NCBI RefSeq assembly: GCF_023520795.1 | Contig: NZ_CP046605.1 | Span: forward strand, 186,001 to 250,000 | Length of the DNA stretch: 64,000 bases | Source of the DNA: Corynebacterium accolens | Lineage (GTDB): Bacteria; Actinomycetota; Actinomycetes; Mycobacteriales; Mycobacteriaceae | Direction of reading: 5' to 3' | Part shown: one piece after another, positions 8,684-61,784 of the stretch | How the letters are laid out: every line of letters begins with the position of its first letter | Numbering within the stretch: the first letter of the stretch is position 1 | The notes under the pieces: generated by a model | What the model was told of the DNA's origin: nothing | What the model saw: the letters and a program-made list of their open reading frames with translations, nothing else | Database searches by the model: none | Translations under genes and position numbers: made by a program

Positions 8684-9019
8684 ATGGACCCACAACACTA
8701 TGCCGAGCTCGAGGACGCGATGGATTACCTCTACGATTTCCTCGATGAGGACTTAGCGGACCGCGTGCGCGCCGAGCGCGAGTTCGTTCCGGCGGGCTTA
8801 GAAAGCTTGCTTGCCGATGACTCCCTCGACGACTACGTCTGGCTCTGGATCAAGGATTCCGGGCCGAATGGCTTCCGGCAGTACCTGCGCGATGGCGGTT
8901 ATTCCGAGGCCGAGGTGCGCCAGACCTTTGCCTGGGCGCGCAGCGAGTGGGGCATGAATACCCCACCGCATATCGCGTGGCTTAAAGAGGACGGCTACGA
9001 GCCGCCGCGCATCGATTAG
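8684..9019 (+). CDS. Acidic conserved hypothetical protein
   Basis: A 111-residue acidic soluble protein with no signal peptide or membrane segment. I do not recognise a catalytic motif. Its start follows the antiporter stop by 3 bases with a GGGAGA ribosome site, so it is probably co-transcribed. The final bases overlap the convergent gene at 9016. The C-terminal half is rich in aromatic residues (TFAWARSEWGMNTPPHIAWL) and looks like a folded small domain. Confidence 0.7.
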   Translation: MDPQHYAELEDAMDYLYDFLDEDLADRVRAEREFVPAGLESLLADDSLDDYVWLWIKDSGPNGFRQYLRDGGYSEAEVRQTFAWARSEWGMNTPPHIAWLKEDGYEPPRID

Positions 9020-9264
9020 GCCAGGCGGTACGGCCCCGCCTTGCGCACCGCCGCATCGATGACCTCCGGATCCACCGTGACGGACTCGGAGTGCTTGATG
9101 ACGACATCCGCAGTGGCCTCCCCGGTCATCTCGAAGGTGGCTTGGCCCATTCCCGTATCGGCAAAGATGCCGTAGAGCTTTTGCAGGCACTTGCGCACGT
9201 CGTTGTCGTTGCGGACGCCTTCGATGGCGATGCGGGTTTCGGTGACGGAAGATTTATCAGTCAT
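9016..9264 (-). CDS. Small conserved hypothetical protein
   Basis: An 82-residue soluble protein beginning MTDKSSVTETRIAIEG. The alternating pattern IAIEGV...DVRKCLQKLYGIF...GQATFEMTG...ADVVIKH resembles a small ferredoxin-like alpha/beta fold such as HMA domains, but the metal-binding CxxC is absent. I chose ATG 9264 because a TAGAAT hexamer lies 8 bases upstream and the longer frame is low-complexity. It overlaps the convergent gene by 4 bases. Function unknown. Confidence 0.65.
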   Translation of the reverse strand: MTDKSSVTETRIAIEGVRNDNDVRKCLQKLYGIFADTGMGQATFEMTGEATADVVIKHSESVTVDPEVIDAAVRKAGPYRLA

Positions 9265-9289
9265 AGAAACAGATTCTAATCCTTCGGTG

Positions 9290-10831
9290 CTAGATGCGGC
9301 CGTTGAAGGCCTGGAGCGCGGAATCCTCGCGGGTGCCGCCGCGGCCATCGCCGTAGTCGGCGTAATCACCAATCCAGGCAATCCGCGATACCCACTTCAC
9401 GGCCTTATACCCGTGGTTCGACTCCACGCGGGCGCGCACTGGGGCGCCCAAGTGCAGATCGATGTCCTGGTCATTGCGAGAGATTGCCAAGATCGACTGA
9501 TCCTCCATGGCGGTCTCGATATCGAAGGCCGCGTAGAAAGGCTCGCGCGGGCGGTTATCGTACATCTTCTGCGCCAAACCATAGGACTCGATAAGCACGT
9601 AGTTGGCGCCTTCGGGGCGGGGGCAGAGTAGCTCGAGGACATCGACAAGCTTGGGACCTCCCCATTTCGAGGTCGCCGACCACCCCTGCATACAGGTATG
9701 CGTGGCGATGTAGGACGTCTGAGGTAGCTCCCGCAATTCTTCGAGGGTGACGGTCTTTTCAGTGCCGTTGACATCATCAGCCACGGTAATGGCGTAGTTC
9801 TGCCACCCATTGCGCTTGTACTCAGTCCACTCCGGGGACTCCTTTTCCGTTGGCGGCAGGCCGTTGGTCCAGTGGAAGGAGGAAATGGGCAGCGGCGAGT
9901 CCTTGGTTTCCTTGGGCTTGCGCGGGTGGAAGTGGTTCAGCGAAAGCTTGCGGCCAATTTCGGTGAACGAGACCAAGAAGTTATGTGCCCGGGCGCGGTC
10001 CGCCAAGGTCCAATAAGACAGGGCAACCCAGAAAATGATGACCGCCACGATGGTGATGATCACGGTGGTAAAGGCCTGCATATAGCGCTCGGTGGAGACG
10101 TCACCGAAGACGATGTGGACCATGTTGTGCTCGCGGTGTACGACGAATACCAGCACTACGTGGACCAAGATGAATGCGGACATCAACACCATGCCGATAA
10201 AGTGCAGCGACCGCGCGCCCTGGTGCCCGCCCAGCATCTTCACGAACCACGGGAAGCGCACGCGGATGGCCGGCGACATGCCCAGGCCAGTCACCATCAT
10301 GAAGGGCGCGACGATGAAGATGACGAAGGCGTAGGCGAGCTGCTGGAGGGCATCGTATGGCGTGAAGTGTTCGATGCCGGGCGCGCTGAGGCTGATATAG
10401 ACCTTGAAGGTATCCCAAGCCTCCGGGAAAATATCCCAGGACGTGGGGATGAGGCGCTGCCACAGGCCAGTGGCAAAGAGCAGCACGACATATACCAGGC
10501 CATTGAGGACCCACAACATGACCGATAGGCCGTGCCAGTGGCGGCCCAGGCCAACGTTTTCGCGGCCCGGCAGAGTCACGAGCGGCGACCACGAAAGCTC
10601 ATCCATCAAAGAGGTATATACGCCCTCTTTCTTGGGCAGCTTGCGCTTGGTAAATCGCAGCCATTCGGTGCCAGGGGCGCAGTCATTGCGCCACCACAGG
10701 CGCGGCATGGAAGAAAGCATTTCCAGCCCGGAGCGCAAGAGCATGCCGATGAGTACAAAGTTGATGAGGTGTGTCGCGCGAAGCCACAAAGGAAAATCGG
10801 GGTTTTCGCCGAGAGCCAAGACATAGTCCAT
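9290..10831 (-). CDS. Cytochrome b561-type membrane domain fused to a sulfite-oxidase-like molybdopterin domain
   Basis: A 513-residue fusion. Residues 1-290 contain about five membrane helices with histidines placed as heme ligands (RATHLINFV, GLGRHWHGL, RSLHFIGMV, ILVHVVLVFVVH), as in di-heme cytochromes b. Residues of about 310-513 are an oxidoreductase molybdopterin-binding domain: the cofactor cysteine is probably Cys380 in HTCMQGWSATSKWGG, followed by GLAQKMYDNRP and a GYKAVKWV C-terminus. In MsrP/MsrQ and related systems these two parts are separate proteins. The layout suggests electrons pass between the quinone pool and a substrate at the outer or inner face. Substrate unknown; a sulfoxide or another oxidised group is a guess. 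Confidence 0.82.
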   Translation of the reverse strand: MDYVLALGENPDFPLWLRATHLINFVLIGMLLRSGLEMLSSMPRLWWRNDCAPGTEWLRFTKRKLPKKEGVYTSLMDELSWSPLVTLPGRENVGLGRHWHGLSVMLWVLNGLVYVVLLFATGLWQRLIPTSWDIFPEAWDTFKVYISLSAPGIEHFTPYDALQQLAYAFVIFIVAPFMMVTGLGMSPAIRVRFPWFVKMLGGHQGARSLHFIGMVLMSAFILVHVVLVFVVHREHNMVHIVFGDVSTERYMQAFTTVIITIVAVIIFWVALSYWTLADRARAHNFLVSFTEIGRKLSLNHFHPRKPKETKDSPLPISSFHWTNGLPPTEKESPEWTEYKRNGWQNYAITVADDVNGTEKTVTLEELRELPQTSYIATHTCMQGWSATSKWGGPKLVDVLELLCPRPEGANYVLIESYGLAQKMYDNRPREPFYAAFDIETAMEDQSILAISRNDQDIDLHLGAPVRARVESNHGYKAVKWVSRIAWIGDYADYGDGRGGTREDSALQAFNGRI

Positions 10832-10847
10832 GGGGGAGGGTCCTAGT

Positions 10848-10879
10848 GAGATAGTTTATGGGGAAAAGGGGGCTATCTC
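10848..10879 (-). repeat. Inverted repeat upstream of the cytochrome b fusion gene
   Basis: GAGATAG (10848-10854) and CTATCTC (10873-10879) are perfectly complementary with an 18-base spacer, 17-48 bases before the start codon. The position suits an operator or a leader hairpin. No regulator is known for it. Confidence 0.35.
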
Positions 10880-10956: not shown

Positions 10957-10960
10957 CCAG

Positions 10961-11049: not shown

Positions 11050-11262
11050 GAGAAGAAACATTAGCAGCCGTGGCAATTAGAATGCCAATCGCCTGGTCAG
11101 TGCCGATTTTTGGGCAATTATTGGGTTTCGGTAGGGCAGGACCCGGCGCTCACCGAACTGCTGCCGCTTACCGATGCCCCCACAGCCTTCCGCCTCGCCC
11201 CAAGCGATGTCGGGCGGCGGTGTATTTGGCTTATGCGGGCCGTGGGCGTTAAGGTAAAGGCA
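11050..11262. other. Intergenic stretch, no confident gene
   Basis: I see no RNA or recognisable gene here. One plus-strand frame without a start codon reads like protein (ELLPLTDAPTAFRLAPSDVG) and runs into the SRP RNA gene, so a decayed gene end is possible. One copy of the repeated 12-mer GCTTACCGATGC lies at 11166-11177. Confidence 0.5.
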
Positions 11263-12714: not shown

Positions 12715-13239
12715 GTGTGGCTTAGCGAGGTCATCCCGGCTCCGCTGGAGTTCCGGTACGTTGATGGGCGCAGGCTGGGTTTAGCCAGGCTTGCCGATGC
12801 CCAATCCCTCGCCCTCACCACCACCTTCAACGACGTCGATACCGGCCTGCGCAGCGATGCCGAAGGCCTAGATGTGCGCTGCGAACTCGTCACTGTGGCG
12901 CGCGTGGGCCAGCCCGAAGTCGCCGCCGCCGTGGGGGCTGCGGCCGCGAAGTTGGAGAAGGCGGGCGGCCTCTTGCCCGCGCAGCCCGGCGTCTTGCTGC
13001 CGTCGCTTTTGGATCTCCCCGGCGAGCCGTCCGTGCACCACGGGCTGCTCATCGCCCCGTACCTTTGGGGCGGGCAGACGCCGCAGTACCGCGAGGATGA
13101 CCGCCTGACGCTCGTGCTGCAGCTGGTCATGCTGACGGATGCGGAATATGCGTTTGGGGTGGAAGAGGGCGTCGGCAAGCTGCAGGAGGCAGTGGCCGAG
13201 CAGGGCATTGACCTGCTGGACTGGTCGCGCGAGGGTTAG
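12715..13239 (+). CDS. SUFU-domain-like protein
   Basis: A protein of about 174 residues that resembles bacterial Suppressor-of-fused domain proteins. The C-terminal part VLQLVMLTDAEYAFGVEEG followed by a C-terminal LLDWSREG fits the pattern of that family (hydrophobic strand, Leu-Thr-x-x-Glu, helix, final Arg). The middle has AAKLEKAGGLLPAQPGVLL and VHHGLLIAPYLWG, also typical. The start is uncertain: GTG 12715 is the first usable codon after the aspT stop at 12692, but no good ribosome site is seen. Bacterial SUFU proteins have no settled role; some sit in toxin-immunity loci, but nothing here suggests that. Confidence 0.65.
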   Translation: MWLSEVIPAPLEFRYVDGRRLGLARLADAQSLALTTTFNDVDTGLRSDAEGLDVRCELVTVARVGQPEVAAAVGAAAAKLEKAGGLLPAQPGVLLPSLLDLPGEPSVHHGLLIAPYLWGGQTPQYREDDRLTLVLQLVMLTDAEYAFGVEEGVGKLQEAVAEQGIDLLDWSREG

Positions 13240-13257: not shown

Positions 13258-16017
13258 GTGGCTTTATACCGGAAATACCGTCCAGCAACGTTTGCCGAGG
13301 TCGTGGGGCAAGAGCAGGTCACCACGCCGCTATCTGCCGCCCTCGACGCGGGGCGCATCAACCACGCCTACCTCTTTTCCGGCCCGCGCGGCTGCGGTAA
13401 GACGTCTTCGGCGCGGATTATGGCCCGCTCGCTCAACTGCGAGCACGGGCCCACGTCGACGCCGTGCGGCAAGTGCGATTCGTGCGTGTCGCTTGCGCCC
13501 GGCGGCCCGGGCAACCTGGACGTGACGGAGCTCGACGCCGCCTCGCACAATGGCGTGGAGGACATGCGCGAGCTGCGCGACCGCGCCTACTATGCGCCGG
13601 CGGAATCGCGCTATCGCATCTTCATCATCGACGAGGCGCACATGATTTCCCCGTCCGGCGCCAATGCGTTGCTCAAGGTGGTTGAAGAGCCGCCCGAGCA
13701 CGTGATTTTCATCTTTGCGACGACGGAGCCGGAAAAAATCATCGGCACCATTCGCTCCCGGACGCACCACTATCCCTTCCGCCTGCTTACCCCGCCCGCG
13801 ATGAAGGGGCTGCTGCAAAGGACCGTCGCCTCTGAGGGCGTGCAGGTCGAAGACGCCGTCTATCCCATGGTCATCGAGGCCGGCGGTGGCTCCCCGCGCG
13901 ATACCTTGTCGCTGTTGGACCAGCTTTTGGCCGGTGCGGGCCCCGATGGCTTGACCTATGACCTCGCGCGCCCGCTGCTGGGGGTTACGGACGTCACGCT
14001 TCTCGATGACACCATCGCTACCCTCGCCGAAAACGACAAGGCCGGCCTCTTCGCGCAGATCGACAACGTCATCGAGGCCGGCCACGACCCACGCCGCTTT
14101 GCGGTGGATCTGCTCGACCGCTTGCGCGACCTGATGATCCTGCAGGCAGTGCCGGGCGCCATCGATGCCGGCCTGGTTTCCGCGCCTACCGACCGCGCCG
14201 AGGTGCTCACCGCCCAAGCGCAGCGTTTTTCCGGCCCGCAGTTGACTTATCTTGCCTCCACCGTCAATGACCGCATCAGCGATCTGACCGGGGCCACCTC
14301 GCCGCGTCTGCTGCTCGAAATCATGTGCGCACACCTGCTCATCGGTACCTCGTCCGGCGCGGCGCCGGGTGCAGCTCTGGGCGCCGCGAGCCAGCCAGGC
14401 CAATTGCCTCAGGCCGCCCAACCCAGCGGCGCCCCGCAATCCGCACAGGCAAGCCAGCCCAACCAGGCCGGCCAAGGGGCACAATCGGCGCAGGCAGCGC
14501 AGTCAGGGCAGCCAGGACAATCGGGCCAGGCGGCACCCTCTGCGGGAAACGGCCCCGCCTTTTCGGGGGCCCAAGACCCGCAGTCGGCAGCGGCCGCCAT
14601 CATCGCGCGGCGCCGCGCAAAGTCCCAGGCCCAGCAAAACCAGCCTGCTCCGGGCTCCACCGCACCGGCGGAGCCACAGCAACGACAAAACCAGGCCGCC
14701 ACGGGCCCTACTGGCTCAGAGGTGCCTGCACAACAATCAAATCAAGCGGCCGCTGGCACCGAGGCACAGTCGGGGCAAGCAACATCACCGTCACCATCGT
14801 CTCAACCGGAGGCAACGGCGCAGCAATCGCGTGGCGAGCATGAGGGTCCTGCGCAGTCGGCGCAGGCCACCCCGGCTGAGCAGTCTGCGCAGCCAGCACC
14901 GGCGGCGCAACATGAACAGCCAGCGCAAACGGAGTCGACAGGGGCTGAGAATCAGGGACGATCTGAGTTGTCCCAAGAACAACCGAGCGCGGAGCATGCG
15001 CAATCGGCGCAGGCTGATTGGGCTGGCCAGGCTGGGCCGTCTGACCAGGTGGAGAAGTCAGAAAGAGCTGATGGGTCTGGGCGGCCTGAGCAGCAGTCCA
15101 CGGATTCGCAGTCTAGCGATGTGCCTGAAAAGGACGCTTCGGCTACCGAGGGAAGCGGCGACGCAAAAACTGACGTCGGCGCGGATCCATGGGGTCAGGA
15201 GCGCCAGGTTCCGCAGAATGCCCCAGCCCGCGGCAACGGCCAAGGGGAACCATTGGAGAAACCGGTGCCAGCGGCGACAGCACAGTCGGAGGGGCAGCAA
15301 CAAGCCCAGGCAGCGCAGGCGACAGTGCAGTCGGAGGGGCAGGGCCAGGGGGCATCGGCAAGCGGCGATGACGGTGACTTCGTGGAGGCAGTGAAGCGGA
15401 AATGGGTGGAGCTGAGGGGGAGCGTCGGCAAGCGGAATAAGGTTGCTGAAATCATGCTTGCCGAAGCCCGCGTGCTCGGGTTCCGCGATAATACGCTGAC
15501 GCTGGGGCATACCACCGGTGCGCTGGCAGAACGCATCAATGCGCCGGCGAATAATTCCGTCATTGTGGACGTGCTGCGGGAGGAATTCCAACGCGATATT
15601 GAGGTCAATTGCGTGGTGGGCACGGACCCGAAGACCGCCGGTTTCGATGCGCCGCGGGCCCCGCAAGCTAAACCCGAATGGAACCCCAACGCGCCCGAAC
15701 GCGAGCCCAGCGATGACAAGGAGGCGGAGAGTAAGCCCGGGTGGCGCTCGCGCATCGCCAAGGCAAGCGAGGTGGCGAAGCAGCGCGATGAGGAATTCGC
15801 GCGCACGCCGCAATTTAGCAACGGGGTGCCGCTGCCGCCTGAGCCGGAGGGCCCCGCGGACGAGCCGCCGCCGGAAGAACCGCCGGCCTATACCCGCGAT
15901 GACGAAGAACGCGACATGGTCGAAGCCGCGCAGTCCGCAGGCGAAATGGACCACCGCAGCGCCACCGAGGTGGCGATGGAGCTCGTGGAAAAGGAACTAG
16001 GTGCTCGCCGTGTCTAG
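13258..16017 (+). CDS. dnaX: DNA polymerase III gamma/tau subunit
   Basis: A 919-residue clamp-loader ATPase. Residues 1-240 form the AAA+ core with Walker A GPRGCGKTSSARIM, the four-cysteine zinc module CEHGPTSTPCGKCDSC, Walker B IIDEAHMIS, and sensor regions. Domain III follows to about residue 370. Residues 375-700 are an unusually long Gln/Ala/Ser/Pro-rich linker with many QSAQ/QAGQ/SGQ units. A tau-like C-terminal domain (about 700-920) would contact the polymerase and helicase. GTG 13258 starts immediately before ALYRKYRP, the normal N-terminus, with TAAACT 8 bases upstream. It heads a dnaX-ybaB-recR cluster. Confidence 0.95.
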   Translation: MALYRKYRPATFAEVVGQEQVTTPLSAALDAGRINHAYLFSGPRGCGKTSSARIMARSLNCEHGPTSTPCGKCDSCVSLAPGGPGNLDVTELDAASHNGVEDMRELRDRAYYAPAESRYRIFIIDEAHMISPSGANALLKVVEEPPEHVIFIFATTEPEKIIGTIRSRTHHYPFRLLTPPAMKGLLQRTVASEGVQVEDAVYPMVIEAGGGSPRDTLSLLDQLLAGAGPDGLTYDLARPLLGVTDVTLLDDTIATLAENDKAGLFAQIDNVIEAGHDPRRFAVDLLDRLRDLMILQAVPGAIDAGLVSAPTDRAEVLTAQAQRFSGPQLTYLASTVNDRISDLTGATSPRLLLEIMCAHLLIGTSSGAAPGAALGAASQPGQLPQAAQPSGAPQSAQASQPNQAGQGAQSAQAAQSGQPGQSGQAAPSAGNGPAFSGAQDPQSAAAAIIARRRAKSQAQQNQPAPGSTAPAEPQQRQNQAATGPTGSEVPAQQSNQAAAGTEAQSGQATSPSPSSQPEATAQQSRGEHEGPAQSAQATPAEQSAQPAPAAQHEQPAQTESTGAENQGRSELSQEQPSAEHAQSAQADWAGQAGPSDQVEKSERADGSGRPEQQSTDSQSSDVPEKDASATEGSGDAKTDVGADPWGQERQVPQNAPARGNGQGEPLEKPVPAATAQSEGQQQAQAAQATVQSEGQGQGASASGDDGDFVEAVKRKWVELRGSVGKRNKVAEIMLAEARVLGFRDNTLTLGHTTGALAERINAPANNSVIVDVLREEFQRDIEVNCVVGTDPKTAGFDAPRAPQAKPEWNPNAPEREPSDDKEAESKPGWRSRIAKASEVAKQRDEEFARTPQFSNGVPLPPEPEGPADEPPPEEPPAYTRDDEERDMVEAAQSAGEMDHRSATEVAMELVEKELGARRV

Positions 16018-18459: not shown

Positions 18460-19233
18460 TTAGCGCTGGGAGCGCGGCGGCTCGGCGGCGTTGAAGCGCT
18501 CGGTGCGCAGGCGATCGACCGCGGGGATGTCCAGCGGATCGAGATCAGCGAGCGAGACGCCCATGGCTTGGGCGAGGAGCAGATCCGCGAGCTGCGGGTT
18601 CCGGGCCAGGGCGGGGCCGTGCATATAGGTGGCGATGACGCTGCCCTGCACGGCGCCTTCGTAGGTGCGCTGGGTGGAACCATCGGCGAGATCCGCGGTG
18701 GCGGCTTGGTCGGCGTTGCCGTTGCCGCGGGTGAGGGTTCCCAGCGGGCGGGCGGACGGACCGAGGATGGTCGCGCCCAAGTGATTTTCGAAGCCGGTGA
18801 GCGGCTCGGTGAGATCTGCGGTCACGCCGGCGCCGGTAGGGGTAGAAGACACTTCGCCGATGGCGCGGTCTTGCATGCCGGCGGTGGTGGCATCGATAAG
18901 CCCGACGCCATCGATGATGCGGCCGGAGGCGCGGAAGGACTCGCCCAGGACCTGCAGGCCGGCGCAAATGGCCAAGATGGGGCGGCCGGACGTGGCGGCG
19001 CGGGTTAGCCCGCCATCGGCAATGAGGTGTTCTGCGGCAAGAATCTGCGCGGTGTCTTCGCCGCCGCCGATGGTATAAATATCCAGCGTCTCGGGCACGG
19101 GTTCGCCAAGCCGGATGGGGTGAATCTCGGCGTCGAGGCCGCGCATGCGGGCGCGTTGGCGCAGCACGAGGGCGTTGCCGTCATCGCCGTAGGTGCCGAG
19201 GACATCGGGAAGCACTAGGCCGATATTAAGCAT
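18460..19233 (-). CDS. gatD: Lipid II isoglutaminyl synthase, glutamine amidotransferase subunit GatD
   Basis: A 257-residue CobB/CobQ-type glutaminase that supplies ammonia to MurT for amidation of the D-glutamate in lipid II. The nucleophile is Cys90 in PILAICAGLQVLGESF, and the catalytic histidine lies in VIATYMHGPALARNPQLAD. IYTIGGGEDTAQ is the usual early loop. It overlaps murT by 8 bases, so the two are translated together as a complex. The amidated stem peptide is needed for efficient cross-linking in Gram-positive cell walls. Confidence 0.92.
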   Translation of the reverse strand: MLNIGLVLPDVLGTYGDDGNALVLRQRARMRGLDAEIHPIRLGEPVPETLDIYTIGGGEDTAQILAAEHLIADGGLTRAATSGRPILAICAGLQVLGESFRASGRIIDGVGLIDATTAGMQDRAIGEVSSTPTGAGVTADLTEPLTGFENHLGATILGPSARPLGTLTRGNGNADQAATADLADGSTQRTYEGAVQGSVIATYMHGPALARNPQLADLLLAQAMGVSLADLDPLDIPAVDRLRTERFNAAEPPRSQR

Positions 19234-27094: not shown

Positions 27095-29426
<2,332 letters not shown>

Positions 29427-50537: not shown

Positions 50538-51608
50538 ATGAATACAGCACAGTCTCGCTCCACCATCGTCGTTGCCATAGGCGAGGAAGCCTTGCGCGCC
50601 GAGGCGGTCCATGCCGCCGCCGCGACCAGCCACGAGGTCATTACGGTCACCGATCCCCGCGATATTCCGCGCAGCCTCGCCGGGGCCTATACGGTTCTGG
50701 TCGATGCGCTCATGGCGCGCGTTCTCGCCTCGGCCCAAGCCGCACAGGCCACGCCCGCCCCGGTGCTTTTCCTCGCCGCGGACCCAGGGCCCATCGATTA
50801 TGAGGCGGCGCTTGCCTGCCATGCGGACCGCGCCTTTATTATCCCCGCGGAGATTAAAGACCTGCTGGCGGCTATTGCCCAGGCAGCGCACCCGCCGGAA
50901 GATCGCCCCGGTAGTGCTACCATCGCGGTGGTGGGCGCCAGCGGTGGGGTAGGCACCTCCACCTTTGCCGCGGTCCTGGCGCGTTCCCACTGCACGGCGG
51001 GCGAACAGGCGCGGGCGCTGCTTATCGATGCCACCGCGCACTCCGGCGGCCTCGATCTCCTCCTCGGCGTGGAAACCGCGCCAGGTGCTCGCTGGCCGGA
51101 GCTCAATATTGGCGATGGCAGCATCGACGCCGCCGATCTCTACCGCGCCTTGCCTTCTACCGCCGATGGCATAGCGGTGCTATCCGCAGCGCGCAGTACG
51201 GTGAAAGACACCTTCACGCTAGATGCCACGCTTTTGGCGGCGGCGACGTCTGCGGCACACGCGGGAGAGGGCTTGTGCGTGGTGGATTGCACGGCGGAAA
51301 ATATCCCTGCTTCCTGCACGCACGTGGTGCTGGTGGTGGCAGCGGAGGTGCGCTCGGCAGCGGCGGCCGCACAACTCATCCTGCGCCTGGATGAGGCGCG
51401 GCGCGACATCGTGGTGGTCCTGCGCCAACGGCAGTGGGCGGCTCTCAGCGCTCCAGAGGTAGAAGACATCATCCACCACCGGGTCAGCGCCCAATTGCCC
51501 ACCGTGCGCGGGCTCACCCGCAGCATCGAGATCGGTGGATTACCGGCCCGGCTCCCCGCGGCGCTTGCTAAGACCGCCCGTGCGGTGCGCGAGGAGGTAG
51601 GGGCATGA
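50538..51608 (+). CDS. ssd: CpaE/Ssd-like septum-site or Tad-associated ATPase
   Basis: A 356-residue protein: N-terminal receiver-like part (1-125), then a MinD/ParA-type ATPase domain with the loop VVGASGGVGTSTFAAVLAR and LLIDATAHSGGLDLLLG. The P-loop deviates from standard Walker A (no GKT), as noted for the M. tuberculosis Ssd (Rv3660c) and the helicase/secretion-neighbourhood CpaE-like family. It likely places or drives the Tad machine; an effect on septum formation is known for the mycobacterial protein. First of seven consecutive tad genes; its stop overlaps tadA (ATGA). Confidence 0.85.
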   Translation: MNTAQSRSTIVVAIGEEALRAEAVHAAAATSHEVITVTDPRDIPRSLAGAYTVLVDALMARVLASAQAAQATPAPVLFLAADPGPIDYEAALACHADRAFIIPAEIKDLLAAIAQAAHPPEDRPGSATIAVVGASGGVGTSTFAAVLARSHCTAGEQARALLIDATAHSGGLDLLLGVETAPGARWPELNIGDGSIDAADLYRALPSTADGIAVLSAARSTVKDTFTLDATLLAAATSAAHAGEGLCVVDCTAENIPASCTHVVLVVAAEVRSAAAAAQLILRLDEARRDIVVVLRQRQWAALSAPEVEDIIHHRVSAQLPTVRGLTRSIEIGGLPARLPAALAKTARAVREEVGA

Positions 51609-52807
51609 GCGCGGCGATGGATAGTTCGGCCGAAACCATGGAAAAGACCATGGAGAAGATGCAGCGCGTCATTGCCGCCGAGCCGGATCTGGTGCACGAC
51701 GCCTCTAGCTTGGCCCGGCGGATCCGCGAGGAAGCAGGGGTTATCAGTGACGTCGCCGTGGTGGATCTGCTCCGGCGCCTGCGCCAAGATGCCACCGGCA
51801 TGGGGCCACTGGATGCCTTATTGGCCCGGCAGGGCGTCACCGATGTCGTGGTCAACGGACCCGAAGACGTCTTTATGGACCGCGGTGAGGGATTAGAGCG
51901 CAGCGATATCACCTTTCGCAACGATGGGGAGGTGCGCCAGCTCGCCTCCCGGTTGGCCGCGGCCTCGGGCACGCGGCTTGATGATGCCCAGCCTTTTGCC
52001 GATGGCCGCGTCACGCGCCCCGATGGCGTCGTGCTCCGCGTGCATGCACTTCTAAGCCCACCCGCAGTGGGCGGGACGTGCATTAGCCTGCGCGTATTGC
52101 GGCAGGCACAAACCACCTTGCCGCAGTTGGTGGCCAATGGCACCGTGCCGGAAGACATCGGCCAGCTGCTTGCCGCGATGGTGAAAAAGCGAGTGTCCTT
52201 CCTCGTTATTGGCGGTACCGGTTCCGGCAAGACGACGCTGCTCTCGGCGCTATTGGGAACCGTATCGGAGCGCGAGCGCATCGTGGTTATCGAAGATACG
52301 GCGGAGCTATCACCGCACCACCCGCATTGCGTGAGCATCGTCTCGCGCCGGGCAAACGCGGAAGGCAGCGGCGAAATCACGATGGCGCAGTTGCTGCGGC
52401 AGGCGCTGCGCATGCGCCCGGACCGCATCGTCGTCGGCGAGATTCGTGGTCCAGAGGTAGTCGATCTGCTCGCCGCGCTCAATACCGGCCACGATGGCGG
52501 CGCGGGTACCTTGCACGCCAACTCCCTCTTTGAGGTACCCGCCCGCATGGAGGCCCTCGGCGCGCTCGGCGGCCTGGACCGCAGCGCCCTGCACTCGCAA
52601 TTGGCGGCCGCCGTCAGCGTGGTTCTCACCATGGAGCGCACGCCACACGGACGGCGCCTGGCCCATATCGGCGTCTTAGAAGGCAATCCGGTCACCCCGC
52701 GCATCATCTGGAGCGCAACCGAGGGGCCCGCGCCCGGCTTTGCGGAATTCTCCGCTTCCCTGTTGGAGGAACAGCGCGAAGAAGAAGGGGGTCAGGCGGA
52801 TGCTTAG
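51605..52807 (+). CDS. tadA: Tad/Flp pilus assembly ATPase
   Basis: A 400-residue type II/IV secretion ATPase (CpaF/TadA) that powers pilus assembly. Walker A is VIGGTGSGKTTLLSALLG; the Asp box is VVIEDTAELSPH; Walker B is IVVGEIRGPEVVDLL; the His box is GTLHANSLFEVPARME. The N-terminal part DVVVNGPEDVFMDRGEG is typical. Start overlaps ssd and its end overlaps tadB (8 bases), so the genes form one operon. Confidence 0.95.
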   Translation: MSAAMDSSAETMEKTMEKMQRVIAAEPDLVHDASSLARRIREEAGVISDVAVVDLLRRLRQDATGMGPLDALLARQGVTDVVVNGPEDVFMDRGEGLERSDITFRNDGEVRQLASRLAAASGTRLDDAQPFADGRVTRPDGVVLRVHALLSPPAVGGTCISLRVLRQAQTTLPQLVANGTVPEDIGQLLAAMVKKRVSFLVIGGTGSGKTTLLSALLGTVSERERIVVIEDTAELSPHHPHCVSIVSRRANAEGSGEITMAQLLRQALRMRPDRIVVGEIRGPEVVDLLAALNTGHDGGAGTLHANSLFEVPARMEALGALGGLDRSALHSQLAAAVSVVLTMERTPHGRRLAHIGVLEGNPVTPRIIWSATEGPAPGFAEFSASLLEEQREEEGGQADA

Positions 52808-54257: not shown

Positions 54258-54461
54258 ATGTCTGCACTATTTATTAAGTACTCCCAGCTCACCCGCGCCC
54301 TCGTCCGCAACGATGAGGGGATGAGCACCATTGAATACGCCATGGGATCGCTTGCGGCTGCGGCACTTGCCGGCGTGCTGTACATGGTCATTAACGGCGG
54401 CGGCGTGGTCGATGCCATCGAGGGAATTATCACCGATGCGCTATCGAATACCCCGAGCTAA
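54258..54461 (+). CDS. Flp-type pilin (DUF4244)
   Basis: A 67-residue prepilin-like protein. After a basic leader (RALVRNDEGMSTIEYAMG) comes a hydrophobic helix (SLAAAALAGVLYMVING). The sequence Gly-Met-Ser-Thr-x-Glu-Tyr matches the prepilin peptidase site, with Glu as the conserved fifth residue. AAGAAAGGA precedes ATG 54258. It is the likely pilus subunit. No prepilin peptidase gene is in the window. Confidence 0.88.
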   Translation: MSALFIKYSQLTRALVRNDEGMSTIEYAMGSLAAAALAGVLYMVINGGGVVDAIEGIITDALSNTPS

Positions 54462-54494: not shown

Positions 54495-54809
54495 ATGCGC
54501 ACGGTAGTCGATGACGATGGTTCCGTGACCATCGAAGCCGCCCTGGCATTAAGCTCCCTCGTCCTCGTGGCGGCGGGCATCATCGGTGCGATCGCGACGA
54601 TGGCGTCCTATATCGCGGCGGTGGATATGGCGGGCGCGGCGGCTAGGTCGCACGCCATCGGCGTCGAGTACCAACCGGCCCGCGAGGATGCCCGGGTGAG
54701 CGTGCGGGAAAGCGCGGGGCTTATTCGGGCATCGGTAAGCGTCGATGCTCCCATCGGCACCATGAGCGCGGAGGCGGTCTTTCCCGCGGAGGTGGCTGGC
54801 AATGACTAG
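54495..54809 (+). CDS. TadE-like pseudopilin
   Basis: A 104-residue protein with the prepilin-type pattern DDDGSVTIEAALALSSLVLV: short leader, Gly, then Thr-x-Glu and a hydrophobic helix. A small C-terminal domain follows. It has the ribosome site AAGAAAGGAGG and overlaps the next gene by 8 bases. TadE-like proteins are minor pilins. Confidence 0.8.
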   Translation: MRTVVDDDGSVTIEAALALSSLVLVAAGIIGAIATMASYIAAVDMAGAAARSHAIGVEYQPAREDARVSVRESAGLIRASVSVDAPIGTMSAEAVFPAEVAGND

Positions 54810-55125
54810 CAGGCTCCGCGGTGAGGACGGGTACGCCACCATCGCCGCCACCGGAATCATCGTCGCCATCATCAGCTTATTGCTGGTCATCGCGGCGGTG
54901 GGGTCTCGCGTGACCGCGCGCCACGAAGCGCAGGTAGCCGCGGACCTTGCCGCCGTGGCCGGCGCGTGGGCCTTGGCCACCGGCAAGGATGCGTGTGCGG
55001 CCGCAGAGAGCGCCGCGCGGGAAAACGGCGCGAGCCTCGAGGAATGCACCGACAATGCACCCGATATCATCGCCGTTGCTGCGGTGCGCGGCCAGAGCGC
55101 CACCGCCAAGGCGGGCCCAGTCTAA
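54802..55125 (+). CDS. TadE-like (Rv3654c-type) secreted minor protein
   Basis: A 107-residue protein: RLRGEDGYATIAATGIIVAI shows the leader and helix, followed by VTARHEAQVAADLAAVAGAW, which is typical of the helicase/secretion-neighbourhood TadE-like family. Two cysteines (DACAA, EECTD) may form a disulfide. The last gene of the tad operon; it overlaps the convergent helicase by 4 bases. In M. tuberculosis the related protein is secreted. Confidence 0.78.
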   Translation: MTSRLRGEDGYATIAATGIIVAIISLLLVIAAVGSRVTARHEAQVAADLAAVAGAWALATGKDACAAAESAARENGASLEECTDNAPDIIAVAAVRGQSATAKAGPV

Positions 55126-57494
55126 ACCGCGGCCTCCTGCGTCATGGTAACGAGCGCGCCGAGCAGCTTGATGGCACCGTCCTTGCTCAGTGGGTTATTG
55201 CCATTGCCGCACTTGGGCGATTGCACGCACGATGGGCACCCGGCCTCGCAGGGGCAGGAGCGCACCGCCTCAAAGGTGGCCGCGATCCACTCGGGGAAGC
55301 GGCGGAAGCCTTCTTCGGCAAACCCGGCGCCGCCGGGGTGGCCGTCGTAGACAAAGACGGTGGGAAGCTGCGTATCCGCGTGCAATGCGGTGGATACGCC
55401 GCCGATATCCCAGCGGTCGCAGGTGGCGATAAGCGGCAACAGCCCAATGGCGGCGTGTTCGGCCGCATGCAGGGTGCCGGGGATATCGGCGGCGGTAATG
55501 CCCATCGCAGAAAGTGCCAGCGGGTCGATGGTATAAGCCACGGCGCGGGTGGTCAGCCGCTGCTCGGGGAGATCGAGGGGGATATCGTCGCCGATGGTGC
55601 CATCGGCAAGCCGCACCTGGTACCCGGTGACGCGGTCGGTGACCTCGACCTCCACGTCCGCCACCCACAGGCCCGGGGAATAATTGACCAGGTTATCGGC
55701 CTCGCGCACGATGCGAATATCCGTAGTAGAGCGCGGGGTGGTCGAATACTCGGGGGTCTCCGGGCGGGCGAGCGCCACATAATCGGATAGGATGAGCTCC
55801 TCGATGACAAAACTTTCGCCCTGGTGCAGGTAGACCGCGCCGGGGTGGACCTGGCTGGTCGCGCGCGCTGCATCGATGGTGCCCAATAGCCGGCCATCTG
55901 AGGCATCCACGATCATGACCTCCTCGCCCGCCCCGCCGCGCAGCGATACTGCCGAGTGGGCGGTTTCCGGCGAGAGCTCCTCCGCGATGGAGGCGGGAAT
56001 GGGCACGGCAAACCACCCGCGCTCCCGGCGGCGCACGAGGCCTTGCTCCGCAAGCTGGTGGATGACCTCGCTGGCACCCCACTCAGCAATGGTGGCATCA
56101 TCCAGCGGTTTTTCCACCGCCGCGCAGTAGATATGGCCAAAGAGGATATAGGGGTTCGTGGGGTTAAAGACGCTTGCTTCCACCGGTTTTCCCAGTAGCG
56201 CATCGGGGTGGTGCACCAGGTAGGTATCCATGGGCTCATCGCGGGCGACGAGCACCACGAGCGAGCCTTGCCCGCGGCGGCCCGCGCGCCCGGCCTGCTG
56301 CCAAAAACTAGCCACCGTGCCCGGAAACCCCGCGGTAACCACGGCATCGAGCCCGCCGACGTCGATGCCCAGCTCGAGGGCGGAGGTGGTGGCGACGCCT
56401 AATAAGGAGGCATCGTCAAGCGCCTGCTCCAACCGGCGGCGGTCCTCGGCCAGGTAGCCGGCGCGGTAGGCGGCGATGCGCTGCGCGAAATCAGGCCGGC
56501 CCAAGCTGCCAGAGAGGGTCTCGGCGGCGACCATCGCCACGACCTCGGCGGAGCGGCGGGAGCGCACGAAAGTCATGGTCCGGGCGCCTTCCGCTATGAA
56601 GGTCGCCATCATCTCGGCGGACTCGGTGGTGGCCGCGCGCCGCACGGGGGCGCCGTGCTCGCCCTCCGCGCCCTCCAAGAACCCAGGCTCCCAGAGCGCG
56701 ACCGTGCGCGCGCCGGTGGGGGCGGAATCCTCAGTAATCGCGTGCGCCGGGCGGCCGGTGAGGCGTTCGGCATGCCGGGCCGGGTCATTCATGGTTGCGG
56801 AGGCATAAATGATGGTGGGACGCGATCCATAATGCCGGCACAGGCGGAGCAAGCGGCGCAGAACCAGGGCCACATTGGCGCCGAATACGCCCCGATAGGA
56901 GTGGCATTCATCGATGACGATGAACTCCAGGTGGCGCAGCACCCGCGCCCACCGCGCGTGCGCGGCCAGCATGGACATGTGCACCATATCGGGATTGGAA
57001 AACACCAGGCGCGAATGATCGCGCACGCCCGTCCGCGACTCCTGGGGCGTATCGCCGTCATAGGGCGCCGGCACCACGTTCTTGAGCTCCGGAATCCCGC
57101 GGCACAGCTCGAGCGCGGATTGCAGCTGGTCCGATCCCAGGGCCTTGGTGGGGGTGAGGTAGAGCGCGCACGCGGTCTGATCCTCTGCCAGCCGGGTGAG
57201 GATGGGCAGCTGGTAGCCCAAGGATTTGCCGGACGAGGTGCCGGTAGAAATCACGGCGTCGCGGCCCTGCCACGCGCATTCGGCGAGCTCGGCTTGGTGC
57301 GCATAGAGCTTGCCGATGCCCCCATCTACCACCTTCTCCTTCAACCCCGGCAGCACCCACTCAGGCCAGTCGGCGTAGCGCGCCCGCTTTGCCGGGAGCG
57401 TGGTGTGAAACGTCAGGGTGGACTCAGAAAGGCGCCGCTGGATGAGTTCTAGGAGCTCTTCACCAATGGGGTTATCGCCAGCCGGGTGAGACAA
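55122..57494 (-). CDS. DEAD/DEAH box helicase with C-terminal DUF1998 domain
   Basis: A 790-residue superfamily 2 helicase. Motif [18 protein letters not shown], motif [11 protein letters not shown] (a DECH box), motif [12 protein letters not shown], motif [17 protein letters not shown]. The C-terminal domain carries a four-cysteine cluster [20 protein letters not shown], which probably holds zinc. This type is related to the MrfA/Hrq1 repair helicases. TTG 57494 starts it with AAGGGGGT upstream. It is adjacent to tad genes across Actinobacteria (Rv3649 in M. tuberculosis), though no functional link is known. Confidence 0.92.
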
Positions 57495-57674: not shown

Positions 57675-57878
57675 ATGACACAAGGAACCGTTAAGTGGTT
57701 TAACTCCGAAAAGGGATACGGCTTCATCGAGCGCGAGGACGGCGGCGGAGACATCTTCGTGCATTACTCCGAAATCCAGGGCAGCGGCTTCCGCACCTTG
57801 GAAGAAAACCAGAAGGTCAGCTTCGAGGTTGGATCCGGCCCGAAGGGCGACCAGGCGCAGGCCGTTTCCATCCTCTAA
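57675..57878 (+). CDS. cspA: Cold shock protein
   Basis: A 67-residue nucleic-acid chaperone: [20 protein letters not shown] has RNP1 (KGYGFIE), followed by [10 protein letters not shown] (RNP2). The long 5-prime stretch from about 57550 (TTGACA at 57558-57563 region) holds the promoter and leader. Ribosome site AAGAAAAGGAA. As in M. tuberculosis, it is divergent from the helicase and near topA. Confidence 0.95.
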
Positions 57879-58544: not shown

Positions 58545-58790
58545 CTAATCCTCCACGGGGTGTGTTGTGGGTGTGCTATCGTCCCCAACAATGCTTTCAC
58601 AGCTGCTGGACTTTCTAAAAAGGTCAGTATAGACCGGTTCGGTGGGGGTGCGAAGCGCCCCCTACACAGCCTTTTGGTGTTACCGAGTATATGGTGCGAA
58701 GAACGGTATAAACCACCTGTGTACGCTAGGGGCGATTGCTGAAAGCGCACAAATTTTAATGTTCGCATCATCGAAAGGGATGAAGTCGAA

Positions 58791-61784
58791 GTGGCAGAAG
58801 CGGCCGAGCCGGGCAAAACTTTAGTGATTGTGGAGTCGGCAACTAAGGCGAAAAAGATCCAGCCGTACCTGGGAGATAACTACATCGTGGAGGCCTCCGT
58901 GGGCCATATCCGCGATCTCCCGCGGGGCGCTGCCGACGTGCCGGCGAAGTTCAAGAAGGAATCTTGGGCCCGCTTGGGTGTTAACCCGGAAGATGACTTC
59001 GCCCCGCTTTACGTCGTTAGCCCGGATAAAAAGAAAAAGGTCGCTGACCTTAAATCCAAGCTGAAGCAGTGCGATAGCCTCCTCCTGGCAACAGACCCGG
59101 ACCGCGAGGGCGAGGCCATTGCTTGGCACCTGCTAGAGGTTTTAAAGCCCAAGGTGCCGGTGCGCCGCATGGTCTTTAATGAGATCACCAAGTCCGCCAT
59201 CCTGGAGGCGGCGGAAAACACCCGCGACTTGGACTATGACCTTATCGATGCCCAAGAAACCCGCCGCATCCTCGACCGCCTCTATGGCTACGAAGTCTCG
59301 CCGGTGTTGTGGAAGAAGGTCATGCCGCGCCTTTCGGCCGGGCGCGTGCAGTCGGTGGCCACGCGGGTCATCGTCGAGCGCGAGCGCGAACGCATGGCGT
59401 TTATCTCCGCCGATTACTGGGATTTGCTCGCCACCTTGGACGCGGGAACCGGCAGCGGCGAGGGCCCGTCGGCCTTTGACGCGCGCCTGACCGCGGTCAA
59501 TGGCAAGCGCGTGGCTGTGGGCCGCGATTTTGACGATCGCGGAAACGTGAAGACCAAGGACGTTATCGTCATCACCCAGCCGCAGGCAGAAGCCTTGGAA
59601 AAGGCCCTGCAGGGCGCGAGCATGACAGTAGCCGGGGTAGAGCACAAGCCTTATACCCGCAAGCCTTATGCGCCGTTTATGACCTCGACGCTGCAGCAGG
59701 AGGCGGGCCGGCGCCTGCACTTTACCTCTGAACGCACGATGCGCATTGCACAGCGCCTTTACGAAAACGGCCACATTACGTATATGCGTACGGACTCCTC
59801 TTCGCTGTCCAAACAGGGCTTGAACGCCGCGCGTAGCTCCGCTACCAGCATTTATGGCGAAGAATACGTCTCGGATTCCCCGCGCGTTTATGACCGCCGC
59901 GTCAAAAACTCGCAGGAGGCGCACGAGGCGATCCGCCCCGCCGGCGAGTCCTTTGCCACCCCAGGCCAGCTGTCTAGCCAGCTGGATGCGGAGGAATTTA
60001 AGCTTTATGACCTGATTTGGAAGCGCACCGTGGCCTCGCAGATGGCCGATGCCAAGGGCACCTCCATGAAGGTGGCGGTCGCCGGCACCGCGACCACGGA
60101 TAATGGCGCCTATGATGTCGAGTTCTCTGCAACCGGCCGCACCATTACCTTCCCGGGTTTCTTGAAGGCTTACGGCGCCGACGAGGATACGAGCAAGAAG
60201 AGCGAGAACCGCCTGCCGCACCTGGAGCAAGGCCGCGATCTGAAGGCCGAAGAGGTCTCGGCAGAAGGCCACTCCACCAACCCGCCGGCGCGCTATACCG
60301 AAGCCAGCCTGGTGAAAAAGATGGAAGACTTGGGCATCGGGCGCCCGTCGACGTATGCCTCTATCATCAAGACCATCCAGGACCGCGGCTACGTGGTCTC
60401 GCGCGGCAACGCCCTGGTTCCCTCTTGGGTAGCCTTCGCCGTGGTGGGCCTCTTGGAGGAAAACTTCACCGAGCTGGTGGATTATGACTTCACCTCGTCC
60501 ATGGAAGATGAGCTGGACTCGATTGCCACCGGCACGGAGGATGGCACGGACTGGCTCAACGGCTTTTACTTTGGCAACGCTGAGGCCAACGAGCACAAGG
60601 CGGCCTCCATTGCGCGGCATGGCGGGCTGAAATCGCTTATCGATGTCAACCTCGAGGCCATCGATGCCCGCAAGGTCAACTCGCTCAAGCTCTATACCGA
60701 TTCGGAGGGCCGCGAGGTCTTCGTGCGCGTCGGCCGCTACGGGCCCTATATCGAGCGCGCGATCGGCACCAACGAGGACGGCAGCGTGGAATACCAGCGC
60801 GCCAACCTCTCGGAGACGGTGACCCCGGATGGGCTGAATGAACAGCTGGCGGAAAAGCTCTTTGCTACTTCGCAGGGCGGGCGCCAGCTGGGCGAAAACC
60901 CTGAAAACGGCCGCATGGTGGTGGCTAAGGAAGGCCGCTTTGGCCCCTATGTCACCGAGGTCGTCCGCGATGATGAGCGGGAACAGGCCGAGGCGGAGGC
61001 CTTGGAGATCGTCGCGAAGGAGCGCGCCGAAGAGGATAAACAGCGCGCCGAGGAAGGCAAGCGCGCCAAGAATTGGGAGACCAAGACAGCCGCGAAGCAA
61101 AAGGAAAAGCGCATCAATGACTACATTGATGAGAAGCTGAAGCCGGGCACGGCCTCGCTTTTTAGCTCGATGGAGCCGCTGACCGTCACGCTGGAACAGG
61201 CCCTTGAGCTGCTATCCCTGCCGCGCGAGGTGGGCGTGGACGACGGGGAGATGATCACCGCCCAAAACGGCCGTTACGGCCCGTACCTGAAGAAGGGCAC
61301 GGATTCGCGCTCGCTGGCTAAGGAAGAGCAGATCTTTAGCATCACCTTGGATGAGGCCCGCCGCATCTATGCGGAGCCGAAGCGTCGTGGCCGCGCGGCC
61401 GCACAGCCGCCGCTGAAGCAGCTCGGCGATAATGACGTTTCGGGCAAGCCTATGACCGTTAAGGATGGCCGCTTCGGCCCGTACGTCACGGACGGCACCA
61501 CCAATGCGTCCCTGCGCCGCGGCGACGATCCGGAGCAGCTTACCGATGCCCGCGCCAACGAGCTCCTTTCCGAGCGCCGCGCCAAAGAGGCCTCTGGGGA
61601 GACGAAGAAGAAGTCCACGAAGAAGTCTTCTAAGAAGAGCACAAAGAAGTCGACCAAGAAATCGACGAAGAAGGCAACAAAGAAGTCCAGCAAGAAGGCC
61701 ACTAAGAAGGGCACGAAGAAATCCAGCTCGAAGCCTTCGCCCGGCACGAAGAACGTGGTTAAAGCCGGCTCGCGGAAGAAATAA
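58791..61784 (+). CDS. topA: DNA topoisomerase I
   Basis: A 997-residue type IA topoisomerase that relaxes negative supercoils. TOPRIM: LVIVESATKAKKIQPYLG and LLATDPDREGEAIAWHLL. The active-site tyrosine is in ITYMRTDSSSLSKQG. The C-terminal part has four GRYGPY/GRFGPYV-type repeats (TopA C-terminal repeat of Actinobacteria, no zinc fingers), and the tail (about 930-997) is almost only Lys/Ser/Thr repeats, which bind DNA. GTG 58791 lies just before EAAEPGKTLVIVE; weak ribosome site AAAGGGATGAAG. Confidence 0.96.
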   Translation: MAEAAEPGKTLVIVESATKAKKIQPYLGDNYIVEASVGHIRDLPRGAADVPAKFKKESWARLGVNPEDDFAPLYVVSPDKKKKVADLKSKLKQCDSLLLATDPDREGEAIAWHLLEVLKPKVPVRRMVFNEITKSAILEAAENTRDLDYDLIDAQETRRILDRLYGYEVSPVLWKKVMPRLSAGRVQSVATRVIVERERERMAFISADYWDLLATLDAGTGSGEGPSAFDARLTAVNGKRVAVGRDFDDRGNVKTKDVIVITQPQAEALEKALQGASMTVAGVEHKPYTRKPYAPFMTSTLQQEAGRRLHFTSERTMRIAQRLYENGHITYMRTDSSSLSKQGLNAARSSATSIYGEEYVSDSPRVYDRRVKNSQEAHEAIRPAGESFATPGQLSSQLDAEEFKLYDLIWKRTVASQMADAKGTSMKVAVAGTATTDNGAYDVEFSATGRTITFPGFLKAYGADEDTSKKSENRLPHLEQGRDLKAEEVSAEGHSTNPPARYTEASLVKKMEDLGIGRPSTYASIIKTIQDRGYVVSRGNALVPSWVAFAVVGLLEENFTELVDYDFTSSMEDELDSIATGTEDGTDWLNGFYFGNAEANEHKAASIARHGGLKSLIDVNLEAIDARKVNSLKLYTDSEGREVFVRVGRYGPYIERAIGTNEDGSVEYQRANLSETVTPDGLNEQLAEKLFATSQGGRQLGENPENGRMVVAKEGRFGPYVTEVVRDDEREQAEAEALEIVAKERAEEDKQRAEEGKRAKNWETKTAAKQKEKRINDYIDEKLKPGTASLFSSMEPLTVTLEQALELLSLPREVGVDDGEMITAQNGRYGPYLKKGTDSRSLAKEEQIFSITLDEARRIYAEPKRRGRAAAQPPLKQLGDNDVSGKPMTVKDGRFGPYVTDGTTNASLRRGDDPEQLTDARANELLSERRAKEASGETKKKSTKKSSKKSTKKSTKKSTKKATKKSSKKATKKGTKKSSSKPSPGTKNVVKAGSRKK

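Follow-up and report, generated by a model that had tools for sequence, protein, structure and literature searches.

Haemophilus and Neisseria take up DNA of their own kind by means of short signals that abound in their genomes. To our knowledge, it is in two Gram-negative families that sequence-biased uptake by way of abundant motifs has been established; we know of no uptake-type sequence outside the Pasteurellaceae and Neisseriaceae, and one in Corynebacterium, whose members are common inhabitants of human skin and nose, would be the first. Chi sites are likewise over-represented and oriented, as recombination signals. Here we describe an element of about 50 bp, a core GCTTNNCGAYGCC with a one-sided C-rich tail, which is iterated through a 64,000-nucleotide stretch of the Corynebacterium accolens chromosome. 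This whole stretch is called the window below (G000:C1:186001-250000; genomes are given as G numbers, G000 being the source genome, a single contig of 2,465,625 bp).

In the portions of the literature that we draw on, the uptake signal sequence (USS) of the Pasteurellaceae is described as a core flanked 3' by AT-rich segments, with a spelling that differs between subclades (PMC1626085), and the DNA uptake sequence (DUS) of the Neisseriaceae as occurring in dialects that are conserved within species and congruent with phylogeny, with a CTG core at positions +6 to +8 common to all dialects and some family members without an obvious DUS (PMC3630211). Other portions report that reading frames in genomes with uptake sequences hold one orientation more often than the other (PMC2346458), that the actinobacterium Micrococcus luteus requires its tad genes for transformation and that the combination of a tad locus with ComEA/ComEC is frequent in actinobacteria (PMC4322843), and that HIP1 of cyanobacteria is highly iterated, has alternates in some genomes and goes with methyltransferases (PMC4390886).

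The element resembles the USS in its hundreds of copies or more, in a core followed by conserved composition on the 3' side only, and in subclade spelling (as far as PMC1626085 describes these), and it resembles the DUS in that its dialects follow phylogeny and some members of the genus lack the main motif. At the same time, its core is GCTTNNCGAYGCC and not AAGTGCGGT or ACAAGCGGT, its tail is a C-rich segment of about 37 bp and not two AT-rich segments, and its host is an actinobacterium with a Tad pilus; the ANNNGCGGT core with AT-rich 3' segments given in part of PMC1626085 thus differs from it in both core and tail composition. Unlike the DUS, GCTTGCCGATGCC holds no CTG, the density here is lower, and the same portion of PMC1626085 says that the DUS has no flanking motifs. 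Because the defining cores of both are absent, the element belongs to neither the DUS nor the USS sequence family, while probably working as they do. As in the uptake-sequence genomes of PMC2346458 (in the part cited), one motif orientation is commoner in reading frames. The suspected machine is, as in M. luteus, an actinobacterial tad locus with ComEA/ComEC; unlike here, the phrase 'uptake sequence' has 0 hits in the main text of PMC4322843. Like HIP1 the motif is highly iterated with alternates in some genomes; unlike the palindromic HIP1, GCTTNNCGAYGCC is directional, carries a tail and is not a palindrome. It also differs from Chi in being longer and in having a tail.

A preliminary description of the window had drawn attention to eight exact copies of a 12-mer, GCTTRCCGATGC. 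The strong excess itself is borne out, with nine copies in the window against a mean of 0.06 after dinucleotide shuffling (0 of 100 shuffles reached nine), although the number was one too low: a copy at 57308-57319 (+) had been overlooked, and the last copy lies at 61538-61549 (+), ten bases from the 61548-61559 assigned to it. Five further places of a 10-base core (8809, 19826, 29249, 29851 and 55602) were all correct; re-counted, GCTTGCCGAT has 11 copies in the window against 0.34 by shuffle. The 12-mer is nevertheless too narrow a definition, the real object being GCTTNNCGAYGCC plus the C-rich tail. Of the 50 GCTTNNCGAYG sites in the window, 27 have the strict RY form (24 GATG, 3 GACG); the whole genome holds 645 copies of GCTTRYCGAYG (308 forward, 337 reverse; reversed control 8, 4 + 4) and, for GCTTGCCGATGC, 114 forward and 95 reverse copies (reversed control 0). 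The copies are spread over both strands about equally, as in uptake sequences.

To set these counts against null models we used a 464-kb sample, made up of the window and 20 stretches of 20 kb (19% of the genome, some stretches having been placed at known site positions), with gene calls from our own script. There GCTTGCCGATG has 79 copies against 2.5 expected from a Markov model, and GCTTGCCGATG or its extended words rank top at every length from 9 to 14. Fifty-two of these sites are sense, 16 antisense and 11 intergenic. When codons were shuffled among synonyms inside each gene (60 shuffles), 1.17 sense copies were expected (maximum 4; about 45-fold excess) and 2.5 antisense copies (maximum 5; about 6-fold), and a first-order Markov model predicted 0.07 intergenic copies. 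Because the motif exceeds the synonymous-codon null on both gene strands and the Markov null between genes, a DNA-level origin of the excess is well supported. The preliminary description had favoured a DNA-level signal over protein conservation, and it was right to do so: on both gene strands the motif is far more frequent than a codon-aware null allows, and the strand-specific tail and the concerted re-spelling in sister species described below point the same way. Its reading of the motif as Leu-Ala-Asp also holds, GCTTGCCGATG being read as G|CTT|GCC|GAT in 52 of 52 sense sites, as do the unusual Leu codon CTT (1264 of 11,087 Leu codons) and the one intergenic copy, at 11166 by the script-made gene calls. 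That the sense frame gives a plausible Leu-Ala-Asp run is what an artefact of codon usage, protein repeats or chance would have in its favour; such an artefact is scarcely conceivable, however, as none of the 60 synonymous shuffles gave more than 4 sense copies against the 52 observed, which refutes it, intergenic copies exist, and the reversed pattern stays near zero. Protein conservation as the cause is ruled out by the codon shuffles.

On the same strand, the core is followed by about 37 bp that are C-rich and G-poor, ending near +49. Tail statistics were taken over 199 GCTT[AGT]NCGATG sites (137 sense, 47 antisense, 15 intergenic): on the strand of the motif, C is ~0.43 and G ~0.23 between about +12 and +48, compared with 0.32 and 0.31 elsewhere, and the upstream side is normal. 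With this one-sided composition over +12 to +48, the element has a direction and a length of about 50 bp. In 134 main-frame sense sites the third-codon C fraction is 0.57-0.96 over +12 to +48, except for 0.36 at +18, and is 0.37 at +51, while at antisense sites the rise in C sits largely at the wobble positions of that gene; most of the tail sits at wobble positions, whether the gene runs along the motif strand or against it. Tails with more C than G were found at 132 of the 137 sense sites, at all 47 antisense sites and at 12 of the 15 intergenic ones, the later half of the tail being weak in the last group (C minus G 0.05 at +30 to +48). Where the opposed sites 19780 and 19825 have overlapping tails, the tails are neutral. 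A signal acting on RNA, such as a Rho utilisation site or the target of a regulatory RNA, might be thought of here, since Rho sites are C-rich and G-poor and 137 of the 199 sites are sense, with 45-fold enrichment in sense and 6-fold in antisense. This is very improbable: all 47 antisense sites carry the C > G tail on the strand that is not mRNA, the greatest excess over expectation is that of the intergenic sites, and prophage stretches are depleted in the motif.

The motif signal is genus-wide in Corynebacterium. Of 242 Corynebacterium genomes, 187 have 100 or more copies of GCTTRYCGAYG, three have 60-99 and 52 have below 60; no reversed-control total in the 242 exceeds 31, and each of the 187 motif genomes has at least 7.5 times its own control. 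Enrichment in close relatives is thus present. GCTTGCCGATGC, by comparison, has at least 17 copies in 19 of the 242. Outside the genus, GCTTRYCGAYG stays near control in 199 genomes of the order (60 genera), at most about 3-fold above it. An unbiased word-and-skew search of samples from five species poor in GCTTGCCGATGC (G105, G219, G001, G149, G010) returned GCTTGCCGACG in G105, GCTTGTCGACG with GCTTGCCGACG in G219 and GCTTATCGACG in G001, all with a downstream excess of C, and no clear motif in the samples of G149 and G010; by the combined pattern G149 has 481 copies, although the 80-kb word search had not picked it out. Pooled over ten further species (118 sites), the tail is present and is strongest between +12 and about +40.

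The core is spelled in dialects. Spelling was counted in 36 motif-rich genomes among 80 searched (chosen by us, all with at least 361 copies, so that other genomes may be mixed): six of them (G000, G096, G106, G128, G151 and G164) have GATG in 92-98% of strict sites, and the remaining 30 have it in 1-9%. In G003, the 16 listed places divide into 13 with GATG and 3 with GACG. Eight of the 44 motif-lacking genomes (G006, G017, G036, G048, G142, G213, G230 and G241) are clearly enriched in a third spelling, TWTYCGACGCC, with 250 copies against 9 in the control for G213, and the TATYCGACGCC sites of G048 (n=9) have a C-rich tail; CGAYGCC is the part common to all spellings. TWTYCGACGCC is also raised in many GACG genomes (e.g. 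157 against 9 in G037) because GCTTNNCGACGCC sites can contain it, and it is therefore diagnostic only in genomes without the main motif. When other iterated motifs were sought in nine motif-lacking genomes (G010, G020, G028, G042, G065, G071, G131, G048 and G241), a related one was found only in G048 and G241. The top words of G028 and G020 look like locally repeated genes and not like a signal; in the G028 stretches L354-L357, long words are strongly repeated (TAGGTGACCTT, ACGAACTCGAA, GTGCCGTCCGG), probably as a repeated gene or array.

These clade-specific spellings are congruent with phylogeny, as for uptake sequences. On a tree of TadA from 26 genomes (chosen by us; the tree has a poorly resolved backbone and long branches for two of its rows), the four dialect labels need 8 changes, compared with a mean of 12.5 for shuffled labels and with none of 200 shuffles as low, and the GATG pair G000/G151 forms a group with the GACG pair G105/G219 with support 100/100. 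When the window was aligned to its orthologous stretches in G105 and G219 (82% identity over aligned positions), a concerted re-spelling between the two sister pairs became apparent. G105 covers 22 GCTTRYCGATG sites, of which 16 read CGACG, one has kept CGATG and five read neither; G219 covers 21, with 16, one and four, respectively. In G151, the sister with the same dialect, 24 of 24 sites still read CGATG. Controls in G105 behave differently: in-frame GAT-G codons outside the motif are GACG in 82 and GATG in 85 of 215 cases (Fisher p 2e-4 vs 16:1), and CGATG anywhere else gives 40:155 (p 1e-9 vs 16:1). At the antisense site 57308 the switch even costs an amino-acid change in both G105 and G219, codon 60 of a helicase gene being GTC (Val) there in place of ATC (Ile). 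G128, a GATG genome at a greater distance, shares few of the sites: they are GATG in 4, GACG in 2 and neither in 7 cases (frame-matched controls 30:87, p 0.05), and in G096 GATG in 5, GACG in 1 and neither in 8 (controls 47:34, p 0.4).

Fourfold-degenerate C in sense tails is kept in 132 of 162 cases in G105, 126 of 156 in G219 and 193 of 200 in G151, compared with 2931/4172, 2999/4225 and 4746/5299 elsewhere (p 0.002, 0.007 and 0.0005). No extra keeping of fourfold-degenerate tail C was seen in G128 (73/112 vs 2075/3036) or G096 (65/97 vs 1431/2290).

We also looked at replication polarity and mobile DNA. GC skew is positive to 1.245 Mb and mostly negative from 1.35 Mb (a later stretch, L018, is slightly positive), from which the origin was taken to lie near position 1 and the terminus at 1.25-1.35 Mb. 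Sampled sites divide into 78 leading and 74 lagging, with no replication-strand bias in the 464 kb, so a strand-biased form of the segregation role that the preliminary description had offered among its options is not supported, and a KOPS-like polarity is ruled out by the same counts. Around seven terminase genes (140 kb, from 4 of 40 motif-having genomes) there are 7 sites where chromosomal density predicts 38.3, and four of the seven stretches have no site at all; the stretches were taken without prophage borders, so that some of the 7 sites may lie outside the prophage. The motif is scarce in recently acquired mobile DNA, as for uptake sequences. A 14-mer scan of viral contigs gave almost only single matches among the matches listed, a phage search with the DECH helicase one weak match, and a plasmid search with an insertion sequence (IS) element five records, too few for a test of mobile DNA. 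As a side observation, the low-site stretch L012 has some IS genes and otherwise, by our reading, ordinary genes; L012:1-5400, near the likely replication terminus, holds genes that read like IS3-like and IS256-like transposases.

Two further explanations turn on these results. One is a Chi-like recombination signal, in which an AdnAB or RecB-family helicase-nuclease would read the core while crossing the tail and then switch to recombination, the spelling following the enzyme and phages lacking the motif as it marks self DNA. Prophage depletion and the one-sided structure fit this too, and PDDEXK_1 nucleases occur in 80 of 80 genomes, many of the listed ones in open frames of about 1000 residues. 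Still, we regard it as unlikely, if the least so of the alternatives: sites show no Chi- or KOPS-like leading-strand bias (78:74), a core of 11-13 bp with a tail of ~37 bp is far longer than Chi sites (5-8 nt), and the nuclease family does not track the presence of the motif. The other is a site for a genome-wide DNA-binding or DNA-modifying protein, for nucleoid organisation or HIP1-like methylation, without any role in DNA transfer. HIP1 shows that iterated motifs can go with methyltransferases and have alternates (PMC4390886, in the part cited), yet the core here is not palindromic, a ~37-bp compositional tail is unexpected for a methylation site, and the depletion of prophage stretches in the same chromosomes is not predicted by a housekeeping role. 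Methylation by itself explains neither the tail nor the prophage scarcity, and we consider a binding or modification site slightly less likely still than a Chi-like one.

Of the four options in the preliminary description (uptake, segregation, recombination or methylation), uptake or recombination fits best. We think that the element is probably a DNA uptake sequence with clade-specific dialects, working by analogy like the USS and DUS, a reading that we base on copy number on both strands, the one-sided tail, dialects, concerted re-spelling and prophage scarcity taken together. Uptake would probably be served by the Tad/Flp pilus with ComEA/ComEC. In the mechanism we propose, the core and the lower tail would be bound by a DNA receptor on the cell surface, the likeliest being a minor pilin or a DNA-binding part of the Tad/Flp pilus with ComEA, so that same-dialect DNA would be taken up and recombined preferentially. 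Because donor DNA with the motif would be favoured in recombination, copies would accumulate; if the receptor's specificity changed, sites across the genome would come to be re-spelled. The tail, lying on one side only, may determine the strand or end that is first to enter ComEC. A signal for some other route of DNA exchange, such as conjugation-like or vesicle-borne chromosomal transfer, would share much of this, since dialects, drive-like accumulation and phage depletion fit any sequence-biased gene exchange and machinery presence does not single out Tad/ComEC; but uptake is the only exchange process known to us with motifs this abundant, and we hold another route to be quite improbable.

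The candidate machinery lies partly within the window. The tad locus starts with a cpaE/Ssd homologue at 50538..51608 (+) (TIGR03815, E 6e-59), followed by the TadA ATPase at 51605..52807 (+) (TIGR03819, E 4e-139), both of them candidates whose link to the motif is putative, and two frames at the TadB/TadC place have no NCBIfam match. A candidate Flp-type major pilin at 54258..54461 (+) contains GMSTIEY, which fits the Flp processing site G/XXXXEY given in part of PMC4322843, and no NCBIfam match names it. The putative DNA receptors are a TadE-like minor pilin at 54495..54809 (+) (NF041390, E 3e-07, below the curated cut-off) and an Rv3654c-family TadE-like protein at 54802..55125 (+) (TIGR03816, E 2e-20). 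A DECH helicase gene adjoins the locus; beside both lies a cold-shock protein gene (CspE/CspD-like) at 57675-57878. Elsewhere, ComEC was found in 241 of 242 genomes, and at E <= 0.001 TadA, a TadE-like protein (79 over cut-off) and the ComEA family (77 over cut-off; G028, G206 and G128 below) in 80 of 80 searched. Pilus, ComEA and ComEC are all present in the source genome. Together with PDDEXK_1 these families are near-universal, and we rejected machinery presence as a discriminator of motif-less genomes: by itself it neither supports nor excludes uptake and shows only that the machine is available in the source genome. TadA bit scores in the 80 genomes fall in classes of 366-416, 440-449 and 453-487, and motif-having genomes are all in the top class (36 of 36 at least 454.6), compared with 33 of 44 motif-lacking genomes below 450; because the other 11 motif-lacking genomes score above 450, we read this separation as phylogeny and not as cause.

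Several observations weigh against an uptake sequence. Strict sites occur once per 3.8 kb, compared with about one per kb quoted for the USS and DUS in part of PMC1626085. The tail is weak in several species, e.g. G060 and G043, and in samples of G026 and G003, and the fold excess is 45 in sense but 6 in antisense, a difference that we read as a likely effect of coding constraint. Tad, ComEA and ComEC are found also in genomes without the motif, so that their presence does not track it; conversely, G128 has the motif, yet a single ComEA-family match is listed for it, a weak one in a frame of 789 residues that is probably another protein, and ComEA in G128 may be absent, broken or divergent. 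Residues that track the dialect, sought in nine proteins of the tad locus and its neighbours in six genomes, numbered 0-8 per protein with no standout. Finally, a literature search gave no report of natural transformation in Corynebacterium among the matches listed; nor did these include a description of the motif, the listed matches to the motif strings being incidental only.

An abundant directional signal in most Corynebacterium genomes suggests that they may exchange DNA as Haemophilus and Neisseria do. We give roughly even chances to the fuller reading of the sequences, in which a Gram-positive, mycolic-acid genus would have a genus-wide, directional DNA exchange signal of ~50 bp with dialects, its C-rich tail being read strand-specifically by a receptor, possibly in a new recognition mode. 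If so, strand composition, and not the core word alone, would possibly set the entering DNA strand, many corynebacteria would exchange chromosomal genes inside dialect groups, and the dialect would be a simple genomic marker of exchange partners. It would also suggest that sequence-biased uptake evolved independently, with a different pilus, in Actinobacteria. In practice, adding the element to DNA could be a key for the genetics of species that are hard to transform, and the concerted re-spelling between sister pairs offers a ready natural experiment for finding the receptor.

The elements of the window are given here as core plus tail, with strand, C and G counts of the tail and, where noted, the state in G105 and G219. 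At the left end, 4214..4262 (-) has core GCTTATCGATG at 4252-4262 with a 3' tail (C12 G2), antisense to a gene at 4232-5488, and reads GCTTGCCGACG in G105. The element at 6283..6331 (-), with core GCTTGTCGATG at 6321, is antisense (C20 G7) and is the sole exception to the switch, CGATG being kept in both G105 and G219. A sense site with core GCTTGCCGATG and a weak tail (C12 G9) follows at 8809..8857 (+), GACG in both sisters, then a sense site at 9602..9650 (-) with core GCTTGTCGATG at 9640 (C19 G8), the intergenic site at 11166..11214 (+) with core GCTTACCGATG (C18 G9), and at 12789..12837 (+) a sense GCTTGCCGATG core (C20 G3), again GACG in both. GACG-spelled cores, GCTTGCCGACG in each case, are found antisense at 13132..13180 (-) (core at 13170; C17 G4), 15385..15433 (-) (core at 15423; C20 G3) and 40645..40693 (+) (C17 G3). 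Between the first two of these, 15315..15363 (-), with core GCTTGCCGATG at 15353 (C20 G8), is antisense to a gene at 13303-16017 that we read as dnaX.

Further along, 18853..18901 (-) has core GCTTATCGATG at 18891 in sense (C16 G10). The opposed pair consists of 19780..19828 (+), antisense with core GCTTATCGATG and a neutral tail (C15 G14) overlapping its partner, and 19787..19835 (-), sense with core GCTTGCCGATG at 19825 and an equally neutral tail (C16 G13); both are GACG in G105 and G219, as is the sense site 21365..21413 (-) with core GCTTATCGATG at 21403 (C17 G6). Two sense sites are not conserved in G105 or G219, 22286..22334 (-) with core GCTTGCCGATG at 22324 (C23 G7) and 29812..29860 (-) with core GCTTGCCGATG at 29850 (C16 G9). 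The antisense site 25895..25943 (-), core GCTTGCCGATG at 25933 (C20 G5), is GACG in G219 and GAAG in G105. GACG stands in both sisters at three more sense sites: 29249..29297 (+), core GCTTGCCGATG, in a gene read as asd (C21 G8), 31287..31335 (-), core GCTTATCGATG at 31325 (C20 G7), and 48125..48173 (-), core GCTTGCCGATG at 48163 (C18 G8). The sense site 38773..38821 (+), core GCTTGTCGATG (C16 G8), reads GCTTGCCGACG in G105.

In and beside the tad locus, 51020..51068 (+) lies in sense in the cpaE/ssd-like gene (core GCTTATCGATG; C19 G9) and reads GCTTGTCGACG in G219, and the remaining sites are GACG in both sisters. They are 54692..54740 (-), antisense in the tadE-like gene with core GCTTACCGATG at 54730 (C18 G8); two in the DECH helicase gene, 55563..55611 (-), sense with core GCTTGCCGATG at 55601 (C17 G7), and 57308..57356 (+), antisense with core GCTTGCCGATG (C20 G3), the site of the Ile to Val change at codon 60; and two in sense in a gene read as topA, 60635..60683 (+) with core GCTTATCGATG (C14 G9) and 61538..61586 (+) with core GCTTACCGATG (C17 G9).

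Some copies elsewhere in the sample sit in larger repeats. The intergenic sites L003:4293 and L003:19881 (G000:C1 ~269293 and ~284881), 15.6 kb apart, have similar surroundings over about 90 bases, and the pair looks like part of a larger intergenic repeat. L010:4478 and L010:4749, 271 bp apart, have their upstream flank in common and GTGAGCGCGAAGGG downstream; GTGAGCGCGAAGGG is itself enriched in the sample, and this pair perhaps represents a second repeat family bearing the motif. Other over-represented words in the window are GCTTGGCCAAGC (4 copies), GAGCAGATC/GATCTGCTC (7 copies) and GTTATCCACA (4 copies), the last of which we take to resemble a DnaA box.

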